Positions 25,737 to 28,983 of a stretch of 36,705 bases of DNA are shown here, piece after piece; positions within the stretch are counted from its first letter, which is position 1, and each line of letters begins with the position of its first letter. This DNA is from Candidatus Nitrosocaldus tengchongensis. GTDB lineage: Archaea; Thermoproteota; Nitrososphaeria; Nitrososphaerales; Nitrosocaldaceae. Below the pieces are notes generated by a model, which had not been told where the DNA came from, made no database searches, and saw only the letters and a list, made by a program, of their open reading frames with translations. Where the stretch lies: NCBI GenBank assembly GCA_013538675.1, contig JACAFJ010000010.1:1-36705 (forward strand), given 5' to 3'. Made by a program: the position numbers and the translations under genes.

Positions 25737-26081
25737 CTAACTAGTTACCCCTCTATATATCATATCTATAAGTGCCCTTATGAAGCCATCATACTCATCA
25801 TCATCAAAGTGTACCTCATCAACCATACCTGAACCTTCGGCTACCTCAACTGCCTTCAGATGGTAGCATGAGACCTTCTCTTTCTCTTCCTTGCCTTCTA
25901 TCATCAGTGCTCTTGTCCTAAAGTAGTAATCCTTACATGTACAGAAGTGAGGAGGATGGACCCAGTACTCATACTTACTACCTACAACAGTCCATATCTT
26001 TCTATTGCTAGGCATGAATATATGCAACTTGACAGCTCTCTTGCATGCTATCCTTTCTGCTCTCTCCATAGGCTCACCCAT
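25737..26081 (-). CDS. SWIM-type zinc-finger protein
   Basis: The 114-residue protein has a CxCx(n)CxH pattern, FCTCKDYYFRTRAL then VSCYHLKAVEVA, which is the SWIM zinc-finger signature. Before it lies an alpha/beta start with W-T-V-V-G and Y-W-V-H-P; after it an acidic, aspartate-rich end. Small archaeal SWIM proteins are linked to recombination factors, but no partner is seen here. The ATG at 26081 lies inside a CCAT repeat and is preceded in frame by a stop; the ATG at 26069 is an alternative start. It heads the run toward the peroxiredoxin gene. Confidence 0.75.
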   Translation of the reverse strand: MGEPMERAERIACKRAVKLHIFMPSNRKIWTVVGSKYEYWVHPPHFCTCKDYYFRTRALMIEGKEEKEKVSCYHLKAVEVAEGSGMVDEVHFDDDEYDGFIRALIDMIYRGVTS

Positions 26082-26255: not shown

Positions 26256-26894
26256 ATGGATATGGCATTTGCATCAAGATGGGCAAAACCAAACGAACCT
26301 AGTATGGGCGAGAAGTTACAGGGTGTAGTGAAGCCAACTGGTCCACTCAAGCCAAGGATAGAGCATGCACAGAGGAAGTTGCAGATGCAGATAATGAAAC
26401 TTGATACAATAGCACAGAAGTTGAGGGAGAAGGATCAATCACTCTTCAAGAGGATAGTACAGTCAATACAGCAGCATGATACGCAGTACTCAGCAGTACT
26501 CTCTAATGAATTAGCTCAGATAAGGAAGTTGAGCAAGATGGTTAATCAAGCAAAACTAGCATTGGAGCAGATACAGTTAAGGCTTAGCACTATAACTGAG
26601 TTAGGTGATGTAGTAGTTACGCTAAGCCCAGCTATGGCTGTTGTTAAGAATGTAAGATCTGGCTTGGCAACTATGATGCCCGAGGTAGATAATGAGATGG
26701 GCGAGATATCTGAACTACTAGGAGGCATACTTATGGATGCAGGGCAGGTTGGAGGCTACAATATAAACTTCGAATATGCCAATGAAGAAGCAACGAAGAT
26801 ACTTGAAGAGGCAGCAAGCGTAGTTGAGAGCAAGATGAAGGAGAAGTTCCCAGATCTACCTAGCATGAGTGATGAGAGCAAGATAATGAGTTAG
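26256..26894 (+). CDS. cdvB: CdvB, ESCRT-III division protein
   Basis: The 212-residue protein matches archaeal CdvB. A basic N-terminal helix (PLKPRIEHAQRKLQMQIMKL, about 29-48) leads into a second long helix through residue 115 or so, then ELGDVVVTLSPAMAVVKNVR and an acidic C-terminal part (MPEVDNEMGEISELLGGIL). ESCRT-III proteins polymerise at the division site and constrict membrane. The end of the chain has a proline segment (EKFPDLPSMSDE) that could act as an MIT-interacting motif for CdvC. The ATG two codons on (26262) is an alternative: a weak TATA-like CTTAATAAC fits it better for a leaderless mRNA. Its neighbours are the CdvB-like and CdvC genes. Confidence 0.9.
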   Translation: MDMAFASRWAKPNEPSMGEKLQGVVKPTGPLKPRIEHAQRKLQMQIMKLDTIAQKLREKDQSLFKRIVQSIQQHDTQYSAVLSNELAQIRKLSKMVNQAKLALEQIQLRLSTITELGDVVVTLSPAMAVVKNVRSGLATMMPEVDNEMGEISELLGGILMDAGQVGGYNINFEYANEEATKILEEAASVVESKMKEKFPDLPSMSDESKIMS

Positions 26895-27025
26895 ATGATG
26901 TATAATATATACGACAGATGATAAACAAATGAGAGAGTAAGAGAGGGAGGTGGTGGATAATAATGAATACCACATCATATACTTTTTATTATTATATTAT
27001 ATTGCACAGTTAAGGGGTGCCCATT

Positions 27026-27508
27026 ATGATACTCAATCGTAACATGTATGATGCAAGAGATAAGGTAATATCTGCAGTGTCTCATCTTGAGATGGAACTA
27101 AAGGCTATAAACTCTCTTTACAATAAAATACAGAGAGATCTGGAACTGCATACTATTGGTTATCCAACTAAGCATAGTAATAACGGTAGAAGCAGTAATG
27201 CCTTATTCAACGGTTCTACTCAAGATAATAATAGCGATGATGATATAACTACACTATTAACATTGTTGCAGACTACACAGTTGGCATTACAGAGTATAAC
27301 TATTCGTATTGATGCACTCATCTACATTCAAGAACTACTCATACTACTTGAGAAGACTATGAATATACTCAATTCAATAAGATCTGATATAAAGAGGATG
27401 GAGCAAGGGATGCAGAGTATAATGAAAAGCATAGGTACATCCTTCATAGAGTCGAAGGTAGAGTTTGGATATAGCGAGAGGATTGAACTACCAAGGATAG
27501 ATGAATGA
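27026..27508 (+). CDS. Small divergent ESCRT-III (CdvB) paralogue
   Basis: The 160-residue protein was recognised by hand alignment with CdvB next door. QLALQSITIRIDALIYIQELL followed by EKTMNILNSIRSDIKRM lines up with CdvB KLALEQIQLRLSTITELGDV followed by SPAMAVVKNVRSGLATM without gaps. The N-terminal helix (ARDKVISAVSHLEMELKAIN) matches the basic helix of CdvB, though it is less basic. Between the first two helices is a low-complexity loop rich in Asn, Ser and Asp (about residues 47-75). The chain stops soon after an F-x-Y match (VEFGYSERIELPRIDE), so the CdvB C-terminal helix is missing. AAGGGGTG lies seven bases before the ATG; a GTG nine bases earlier is less likely. A role in division or membrane remodelling is inferred. 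Confidence 0.65.
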   Translation: MILNRNMYDARDKVISAVSHLEMELKAINSLYNKIQRDLELHTIGYPTKHSNNGRSSNALFNGSTQDNNSDDDITTLLTLLQTTQLALQSITIRIDALIYIQELLILLEKTMNILNSIRSDIKRMEQGMQSIMKSIGTSFIESKVEFGYSERIELPRIDE

Positions 27509-27521
27509 ATGAATGAATATG
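27501..27521. repeat. GAAT tetranucleotide repeat over the stop codon
   Basis: About four and a half ATGA/GAAT units cover the end and stop codon of the CdvB-like gene. Slippage by one unit would change its last residues. Confidence 0.55.
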
Positions 27522-27551
27522 CGTATAACCATACTAATGTATTGAATGTAC

Positions 27552-27570
27552 GATTAATTAATTAATTAAG
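27552..27570. repeat. TTAA repeat upstream of cdvC
   Basis: This is nearly the same sequence as the palindrome at 26125-26144, differing only at the last base. It lies in the 191-base gap between the CdvB-like gene and cdvC; otherwise that gap holds a TATA-like stretch near 27641-27655. Confidence 0.55.
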
Positions 27571-27699
27571 TTATACCAGAACCAACCATTAATCAAGCAT
27601 ACACTAAAAGCGATTGTCAATATTAGTTGAGTTATTTTGCTATTAAATTTTACACTATGGTATAGGTAAATCCTTATCCCTACTGCAGGTGAGTGTTAA

Positions 27700-28983
27700 T
27701 TGACCCTTGCACCCCAAGAGTTGGAGAATATTGCAAGTAAGCATGCTGCAGAGGCCATCAAGTTAGATTCACAAGGAGCAAAGCCACATGCTATACTACA
27801 CTATCAGAAGGCTGTTGACGCATTGTTGAAGTTGGTGCACCTCTATCCAGATTACAAGCTGAACAAGATATATGTTGAGAGGGCAAAGGCATATCAGAAC
27901 AGGATAAAGGCATTGCAGGAGGCTAGAGGACTTGATGGTATACATGATGTAATCCACGAGGATAATAAGGGTAATAGCAAAGGCATAGATCAAGGTAATG
28001 CAGGTATAAACAGGGTTAGACAGGATGGCGTTGGAGGTGAGAGAAGTACCAGTGTTAATGGTAATGGGTTCAGTAATAATGCTGATACAAATGTTGAGAT
28101 CCTCAAGGCCGACTTCGATGATCTAGTGCTTAAGGATAAACCAAATGTAAAGTGGGACGAGGTTATAGGGCTTGAGGATGCAAAGAGAGCGTTGAGAGAG
28201 AGCATAATATACCCTACCCAAAGACCAGATCTATTCCCTCTAGGTTGGCCAAAGGGTATACTGCTCTATGGTCCTCCAGGCAACGGCAAGACACTTCTAG
28301 CAGCAGCAACTGCAAGTGAGATAGATGGTTACTTCATAAACGTAGATGCAGCATCGATGATGAGCAAATGGCTTGGTGAGGCTGAGAAGAATGTAGCAAA
28401 ACTATTCTCTATGTCAAGGAGGGTAGTTAGCAAGGAGAATGTGCCAGTGATACTCTTCATAGATGAGGTTGACTCCCTGCTAGGTACAAGGAGCAATGAG
28501 ATAGGAGGAGAGGTTAGGGTCAAGAACCAGTTCCTTACAGAGATGGATGGTATTACAAGCAAGTCTGGCAAGTCGCCAATATACGTTATAGGTGCTACAA
28601 ACAAGCCTTGGAGCCTAGACTGGCCATTCCTCAGGAGGTTCCAGAAGAGGATATACGTAGGCTTACCAGATTACAATGCAAGGTTACAGATGTTCAGATC
28701 ATACACTACCCAACTCAACATAGACCCATCTCTAAAGCTTGAGGATCTGGCAAAGATAACAGAAGGATACTCAGCAAGTGATATAAGGGATATCTGCCAG
28801 GGTGTGCAACTGAAGGTAGTAAATGAACTCTTTGAGAGTGGCAAGGCATTCGATGGTAATGCTCAGACAAGGAGCATAAGCATGAACGACTTTAAGGAGA
28901 TACTAAAGAACAGGAAGCCTAGTGTTAGCCAGGAGATGATAAAGGCTTATCTGAGGTGGACTGAACAGTTCAAGGCACTCTAG
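27700..28983 (+). CDS. cdvC: CdvC, Vps4-type AAA ATPase
   Basis: The 427-residue protein has an N-terminal MIT domain (about 4-75: ELENIASKHAAEAIKLDSQG, then HYQKAVDALLKLV), a linker of about 60 residues rich in Gly, Asn and Ser, and one AAA domain. Visible there are Walker A GPPGNGKT (191-198), the pore loop MSKWLGEAEKN, Walker B FIDEVDSL (Asp255, Glu256), sensor 1 GATNKP and the arginines of LRRFQKR (312-313). Vps4 enzymes pull apart ESCRT-III filaments, here CdvB and perhaps its small paralogue. The start is TTG: an in-frame TAA lies just before it, and AGGTGAG is a good Shine-Dalgarno site about seven bases upstream. Confidence 0.93.
   Translation: MTLAPQELENIASKHAAEAIKLDSQGAKPHAILHYQKAVDALLKLVHLYPDYKLNKIYVERAKAYQNRIKALQEARGLDGIHDVIHEDNKGNSKGIDQGNAGINRVRQDGVGGERSTSVNGNGFSNNADTNVEILKADFDDLVLKDKPNVKWDEVIGLEDAKRALRESIIYPTQRPDLFPLGWPKGILLYGPPGNGKTLLAAATASEIDGYFINVDAASMMSKWLGEAEKNVAKLFSMSRRVVSKENVPVILFIDEVDSLLGTRSNEIGGEVRVKNQFLTEMDGITSKSGKSPIYVIGATNKPWSLDWPFLRRFQKRIYVGLPDYNARLQMFRSYTTQLNIDPSLKLEDLAKITEGYSASDIRDICQGVQLKVVNELFESGKAFDGNAQTRSISMNDFKEILKNRKPSVSQEMIKAYLRWTEQFKAL

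Follow-up and report, generated by a model that had tools for sequence, protein, structure and literature searches.

The cdv locus of the thermophilic ammonia oxidiser Candidatus Nitrosocaldus tengchongensis raises the question of what a protein of only 160 residues, encoded directly upstream of the Vps4-type ATPase gene cdvC, might be and where it came from. The locus lies within a 36,705-nucleotide stretch of contig JACAFJ010000010.1 (assembly GCA_013538675.1), hereafter the window, and comprises three genes on the + strand: an ESCRT-III gene (26262..26894; 210 aa, or 212 aa from an ATG at 26256), the small open reading frame (ORF; 27026..27508, 160 aa and stop, with an alternative GTG start at 27017) and cdvC (27700..28983; 427 aa), whose product gives Pfam MIT (residues 12-74), AAA and Vps4_C matches. 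By its NCBIfam score, the first gene is of the CdvB1/B2 type (195.9 bits with the CdvB1_B2 model vs. 108.6 bits with the CdvB model, both under the curated cut-offs). The comparisons described here support the view that the small ORF codes for an ESCRT-III relative which has kept helices 1-4 and lost helix 5, and which probably arose by erosion of CdvB, a protein of cell division. The explanation that we consider likely is that it represents the form which ammonia oxidisers have of the second ESCRT-III gene, here designated X, in an old locus ordered CdvB1/2-type gene, X and CdvC, and that it was eroded from a long X.

Taken as single sequences, the small protein and its neighbour show weak similarity (E 0.06), and a Pfam search of the small protein returned three sub-threshold matches and no ESCRT-III match. 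The resemblance of the core helices that a sequence-only reading of this DNA had noticed by eye is above chance: an ungapped block of 43 residues (QLALQ.../KLALE...) contains 10 identities and scores 56 with BLOSUM62, against a mean of -23.9 (standard deviation 13.2) and a maximum of 35 in 20,000 shuffles. A profile of the seven orthologues from the window's family (f1; six genomes of the genus, including that of the window, plus G006 of a second genus) matches the neighbouring CdvB in all seven family genomes (E 1.6e-7 to 1.5e-6), with helices 1 to 4 aligned in register, which bears out the ESCRT-III relation first proposed by eye. Among solved structures, the best match of this profile is CdvB of S. 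islandicus (9s9j; E 2.7e-6), ahead of CdvB2 (0.014) and of unrelated helices (from 0.041), and the small protein aligns to crenarchaeal CdvB across profile positions 61-151. The NCBIfam models matched by most family members are likewise CdvB models, those for CdvB and CdvB1/B2 each matching six of the seven far below cut-off and that for CdvB3 matching only three.

How widespread this arrangement is was addressed by a survey of 83 cdvC loci from 81 genomes of the order Nitrososphaerales, in which X was taken as the first same-strand ORF with a length of 130 aa or more in the 600 bases before cdvC; G009b, G035, G086b and G095 were excluded manually, and the second ORF was taken for G088. Of 90 genomes with a cdvC match, the window's own and G029, G046, G059, G084, G087, G090, G093, G096, G097 and G099 are absent from the loci; G114 and G129 were added from the profile search and lie outside the amoA search, and at most 16 loci are represented with only about 1500 flanking bases. 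X lies directly upstream of cdvC at 69 of the 83 loci and is preceded by a CdvB-like gene at 68 of these, the flank of G051 being too short to show the gene before X. The loci lacking X are nine of family f7, two at contig ends (G016 and G025), the second copies of cdvC in G009 and in G086, and G095. Outside the order, 10 of 30 loci chosen by the CdvB model read ESCRT-III, ESCRT-III, CdvC, and the nine above the cut-off of that model read CdvB then CdvC; the small gene of the window, like these CdvB genes, lies directly before cdvC. The sequence-only reading had deemed the placement notable on the ground that thaumarchaeal cdv genes are mostly scattered, a view that is not supported, given the frequency of the three-gene order both within the order and outside it; moreover, an extra gene upstream of cdvC in Thaumarchaea has already been published (PMC10936438).

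The length of X differs between families. The amoA gene was found in 42 of 101 genomes, all of them within families f1, f2, f7 and f9, where X measures 135-224 aa (30 proteins; short X), and in the families without amoA it measures 245-329 aa in 38 of 39 proteins and 192 aa in one (long X). The winged helix of crenarchaeal CdvB has a homologue in the C-terminal domain of long X (hhalign E 9.3e-13). This domain was detected at E < 1e-3 in 25 of the 39 long X (best decoy 0.019), in none of the 30 short X under E 1 (the window protein is outside this set but has no room for it), and the CdvB1-type proteins gave no match to it even at E values as high as 10. A model of one long X (mean predicted local distance difference test score, pLDDT, 66; predicted template modelling score, pTM, 0.44) displays helices matching helices 1-5 plus three at the end, and Foldseek gave matches of low TM-score to CdvB2 (2.4e-5) and CdvB (8.8e-4). 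The long X at locus L106 and others also have in common that helix 5 is joined to the winged helix by a linker containing LLATG and EFKP-LL stretches.

Short and long X are connected by several comparisons. At E < 1e-3 the f1 profile recovers 2/2 f2, 6/7 f7 and 1/15 f9 proteins, 27/39 long X and 46/55 CdvB1-type proteins, and conversely the f2 and long-X profiles, neither of which includes an f1 row, each recover all seven f1 proteins. Decoys (reversed sequences, shuffled sequences and 1409 real frames) yielded nothing at 1e-3 with six profiles, the best values being 0.06 for f1 and 0.023 overall. Medians computed over the reported matches only place f1 proteins at 25.1 bits with the long-X profile vs. 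19.4 bits with the CdvB1-type profile, and the corresponding hhalign E-values are 6e-9 and 8.8e-6; the X proteins of f2 (63.3 vs. 34.0 bits) and f7 (34.3 vs. 14.7 bits) are clearly nearer long X. In a tree computed without one long row, all X fall on one side (99/99). We regard the link between short and long X as fairly firm. A 357-aa protein of G001 matched at E 0.007 was tentatively attributed to chance helix similarity.

The small protein differs from a complete ESCRT-III protein at both ends and at the hairpin tip. Its AlphaFold2 model (mean pLDDT 76.7; pTM low, at 0.33) consists of two helices, residues 2-44 (27029..27157, +), which match helix 1, and residues 69-146 (27230..27463, +), which span ESCRT-III helices 2-4, separated by a disordered link. 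The last modelled helix stops at residue 146 of 160, and the remaining 14 residues (27464..27505, +) are too few for a helix 5 or a winged helix, in agreement with the previously claimed absence of the CdvB C-terminal helix; across f1, 14-22 residues follow the last helix, and of the five-helix core helix 5 is absent. The Asn/Ser/Asp-rich stretch that joins helix 1 to helix 2 (residues 45-68; 27158..27229, +; pLDDT <50) in place of the hairpin tip, and that the sequence-only reading had described, is real; its length varies within the genus, and in G006 of the second genus a short link takes its place. Ahead of helix 1, f1 proteins have 9-11 residues, compared with a median of 19 for long X; in Sulfolobus, membranes are bound by short N-terminal helices (PMC12818579). 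The helix 2-4 block, on the other hand, is constant in length, with 61 residues in 7/7 f1, 2/2 f2 and 5/7 f7 proteins and 60-61 residues in 39/39 long X, and what follows it amounts to 14-22 residues in f1, 31-37 in f2, 53-108 in f7 and 52-181 in long X. Glu-Leu-Pro (ELP) near the C-terminus (27485..27493, +) is invariant in the seven f1 orthologues and would be at most a degenerate MIT-interacting motif 2 (MIM2). A retained MIM2, which CdvB carries after helix 5 and ahead of its winged helix, was considered and rejected: the published MIM2 core expression (taken from PMC8970359) fits none of the seven f1 proteins and none of the 39 long X. A canonical MIM2 core, FPDLP, can be read in the CdvB1/B2-type protein of the window (26847..26861, +), and the CdvB1-type gene carries a canonical MIM2 at 36 of the 38 amoA-negative loci.

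These observations would fit a history in which relatives without amoA retain X as a long ESCRT-III protein, mostly winged-helix-ended and placed directly before cdvC like crenarchaeal CdvB, and in which the lineage of the window would have lost the winged helix and helix 5, shortened the N-terminus and turned the hairpin tip into a disordered link, helices 1-4 being retained under purifying selection, as computation supports. Long X would correspond to CdvB because of its position and its winged helix, and the CdvB identity rests on these two features since neither the trees nor the core sequence alone would link X to crenarchaeal CdvB; our confidence is limited for the same reason. A number of results weigh against this history. 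The trees place X opposite crenarchaeal CdvB, CdvB1 and the CdvB1-type genes (96/99 in the first tree, where a single f7 row was placed among long X, and 99/99 when one long row was removed), and f9 proteins connect only via f7 (hhalign to long X 0.033). In the core region, the CdvB1/B2 model outscores the CdvB model for three of four long X, the long-X profile prefers CdvB2 (91.6 bits) to CdvB (82 bits) among solved structures, and 14 of the 39 long X have no winged helix detectable at 1e-3. As for the small protein itself, the G006 ORF has no single-sequence match to it or to CdvB at 1e-3, and Foldseek and VIA-align searches with its low-pTM model as query found no match. The trees are affected by many long branches, which make the split between X and CdvB unsure.

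Constraining short X to group with the CdvB1-type proteins lowers the log-likelihood by 10.83 and is tolerated by the approximately unbiased (AU) test (p 0.239), a result that also counts against descent from long X and would suit another origin, namely that the small gene is a tandem duplicate of its CdvB1-type neighbour which lost its C-terminal part, the original second ESCRT-III gene having disappeared. The recovery of most CdvB1-type proteins by the f1 profile agrees with such a duplication, which we nonetheless judge unlikely: the small gene sits in the exact position of the relatives' long X, the profiles and hhalign put its product nearer long X, the intermediates of f2 and f7 lean clearly the same way, and the free tree unites all X. 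A second alternative, that the gene is a decaying remnant with no function of its own, draws on its rate of change. With similar dS, its median dN is 0.164 vs. 0.026 for cdvB and 0.041 for cdvC (4 sequences), i.e., the protein evolves several times faster than its neighbours, and X is missing upstream of cdvC at nine of 16 f7 loci. Conservation in close relatives, which the sequence-only reading had made a test of the gene, speaks against a remnant. The ORF is open in all seven family genomes, lies between the two flanking genes in 6/6 relatives, and its product is 72-81% identical to the small protein in the five other genus members and 24% identical in G006. Its dN/dS of 0.11-0.32 in 15/15 genus pairs indicates purifying selection. 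The helices have pN/pS values of 0.26 and 0.24, the tail 0.23 and the link, which is weakly constrained, 0.63 (vs. 0.06 for cdvB and 0.08 for cdvC), and 23 columns, including the ELP tail, are invariant among the orthologues. A mere remnant is thus improbable. Even less probable is an unrelated two-helix coiled-coil adaptor whose ESCRT-III likeness stems from helical composition; the weak single-sequence similarity, the want of a Pfam ESCRT-III or Foldseek match and the low pTM would all be expected of it, but the decoy controls are clean, CdvB and CdvB2 lead all other helices among solved structures, the NCBIfam models matched by most members are CdvB models, and the helix 2-4 block does not vary in length.

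If the small protein is an eroded CdvB, what might it do? The sequence-only reading had suggested either a constitutive filament former or a capping subunit. The former is not favoured in view of the absence of helix 5 and of the usual hairpin tip. In open polymers, adjacent hairpins are touched by helix 5. Crystals of CdvB show this helix either folded over the helix 1-2 hairpin or swung out (PMC12818579), and residues 1-192 of N. maritimus CdvB polymerise without MIM2 in a construct that retains the whole core, residues 1-181 (PMC3684127). Because the small protein has no helix 5, a changed tip and a short N-terminus, usual polymerisation is not expected of it. Helices 1-4 could still pack against a CdvB1-type subunit, but, since helix 5 is missing and the tip is altered, neither auto-inhibition nor joining of the usual filament would be expected; CdvC would be engaged mainly via the canonical MIM2 of the neighbour. 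The mechanism that we would tentatively put ahead of others, from sequence features, is that the small protein ends, spaces or seeds a CdvB1-type filament as a capping or spacing partner. More speculative still is the wider proposal that in ammonia oxidisers CdvB was eroded stepwise and in place into a non-filament ESCRT-III end-cap or spacer, as part of a rewired Cdv system without the winged-helix link, and that arCOG08707 is this protein.

The family arCOG08707 was described as small, helical and encoded upstream of cdvC/vps4 in Thaumarchaea (PMC10936438), and the small protein agrees with this description in position and size. Its authors point to a helical hairpin that it has in common with ESCRT-III and CdvA and, in the part of the article consulted, find no similar known protein (PMC10936438), whereas the small protein of the window has a sequence link to ESCRT-III. 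Among the open-licence papers searched, this is the only one naming arCOG08707, and in those listed no derivation of this cdv-locus gene from CdvB was recognised. An origin would thereby be offered for a Cdv component described as having no known relatives. The same article, as far as consulted, reports no winged helix in the thaumarchaeal CdvB family (PMC10936438), in contrast to the winged-helix ESCRT-III proteins shown here to be encoded at cdv loci of amoA-negative Nitrososphaerales families, and the absence can now be placed in the ammonia-oxidiser families. Crenarchaeal CdvB, the best match among solved structures, is like the small protein in having ESCRT-III helices 1-4 and a gene directly before cdvC, but it also has helix 5, a canonical MIM2 and a winged helix, and trees keep X apart from it. 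Long X of amoA-negative Nitrososphaerales has the same locus and helix 2-4 block and differs by its greater length, its helix 5 and, mostly, its winged helix; CdvB1/B2 has the ESCRT-III core in common with the small protein and differs in being full-length, with helix 5 and, at nearly all amoA-negative loci, the canonical MIM2. CdvB3 of Sulfolobales is likewise a short CdvB paralogue without a winged helix, for which no CdvC-binding domain was found according to the portion of PMC8970359 consulted, but it is described as retaining core helices 1-5 (PMC5840170) and is encoded away from the main locus. N. maritimus has a short cdvB at its main locus (PMC5840170). Ca. N. cavascurensis possesses three CdvB paralogues, CdvC and no CdvA, and no small CdvB is named in the portion of PMC5797428 consulted. 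Should the conjectured function hold true, the small protein would be a natural ESCRT-III without helix 5, making the role of this helix testable, and a candidate component for the unexplained division mode of the abundant ammonia-oxidising archaea.

The genome of the window codes for three full-length CdvB proteins and gave no match to CdvA. One of its CdvB paralogues, encoded elsewhere (L023:1369-2139, C26), bears a Ser-rich C-terminal extension after an LPDLP-like stretch, resembling the extension of NCAV_0805 (PMC5797428). CdvA was found in 0/6 genomes of the genus and 0/2 of f2, below cut-off in G006, and in 17/17 genomes of f7 and 15/16 of f9. A coupling of winged-helix loss to loss of the C-terminal peptide of CdvA was considered and dropped: nine crenarchaeal CdvA have a common PIPV-type end, and 14 amoA-negative CdvA have no clear PIPV counterpart by eye, yet their X is winged. 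Most of ten ammonia-oxidiser CdvA tails (L157-L186) exhibit a short common motif around W-L/I/F (DWLARMEAQ, AWLNQVIQQ) after a long variable stretch, unlike the crenarchaeal ends.

The f7 loci lacking X belong to genera g8, g25 and g36 (e.g., L104, L102 and L112). Relocation of X in these genomes was considered and rejected, as six g8 candidates are of the CdvB1 type (about 1e-24 to 1e-26 vs. 1.5e-3 to 4.6e-3 for f7 X); the weak g8 matches elsewhere in the genome are CdvB paralogues. A second cdvC-like gene occurs in two genomes (G009:C57 and G086:C1:437471-438403), the copy of G009 having a CdvB1-type gene directly before it. A TrmB-type regulator gene, a candidate cdv regulator, occupies the opposite strand at 41 of the 83 cdv loci surveyed and the same strand at one, and was not seen at cdv loci of families f3, f4, f8, f13, f16 and f17; the two tested gave Pfam TrmB matches at E 2e-19 and 8e-21 (L048:890-2101 and L047:1422-2588 are among the loci). 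In the window, the ESCRT-III gene is preceded by a divergent gene of 114 aa (25737-26081, - strand) whose product has no Pfam match and displays a CxCxxxxF...CxH pattern, which we take to be SWIM-like. Four relatives in the genus also have a counterpart of this gene upstream of cdvB.

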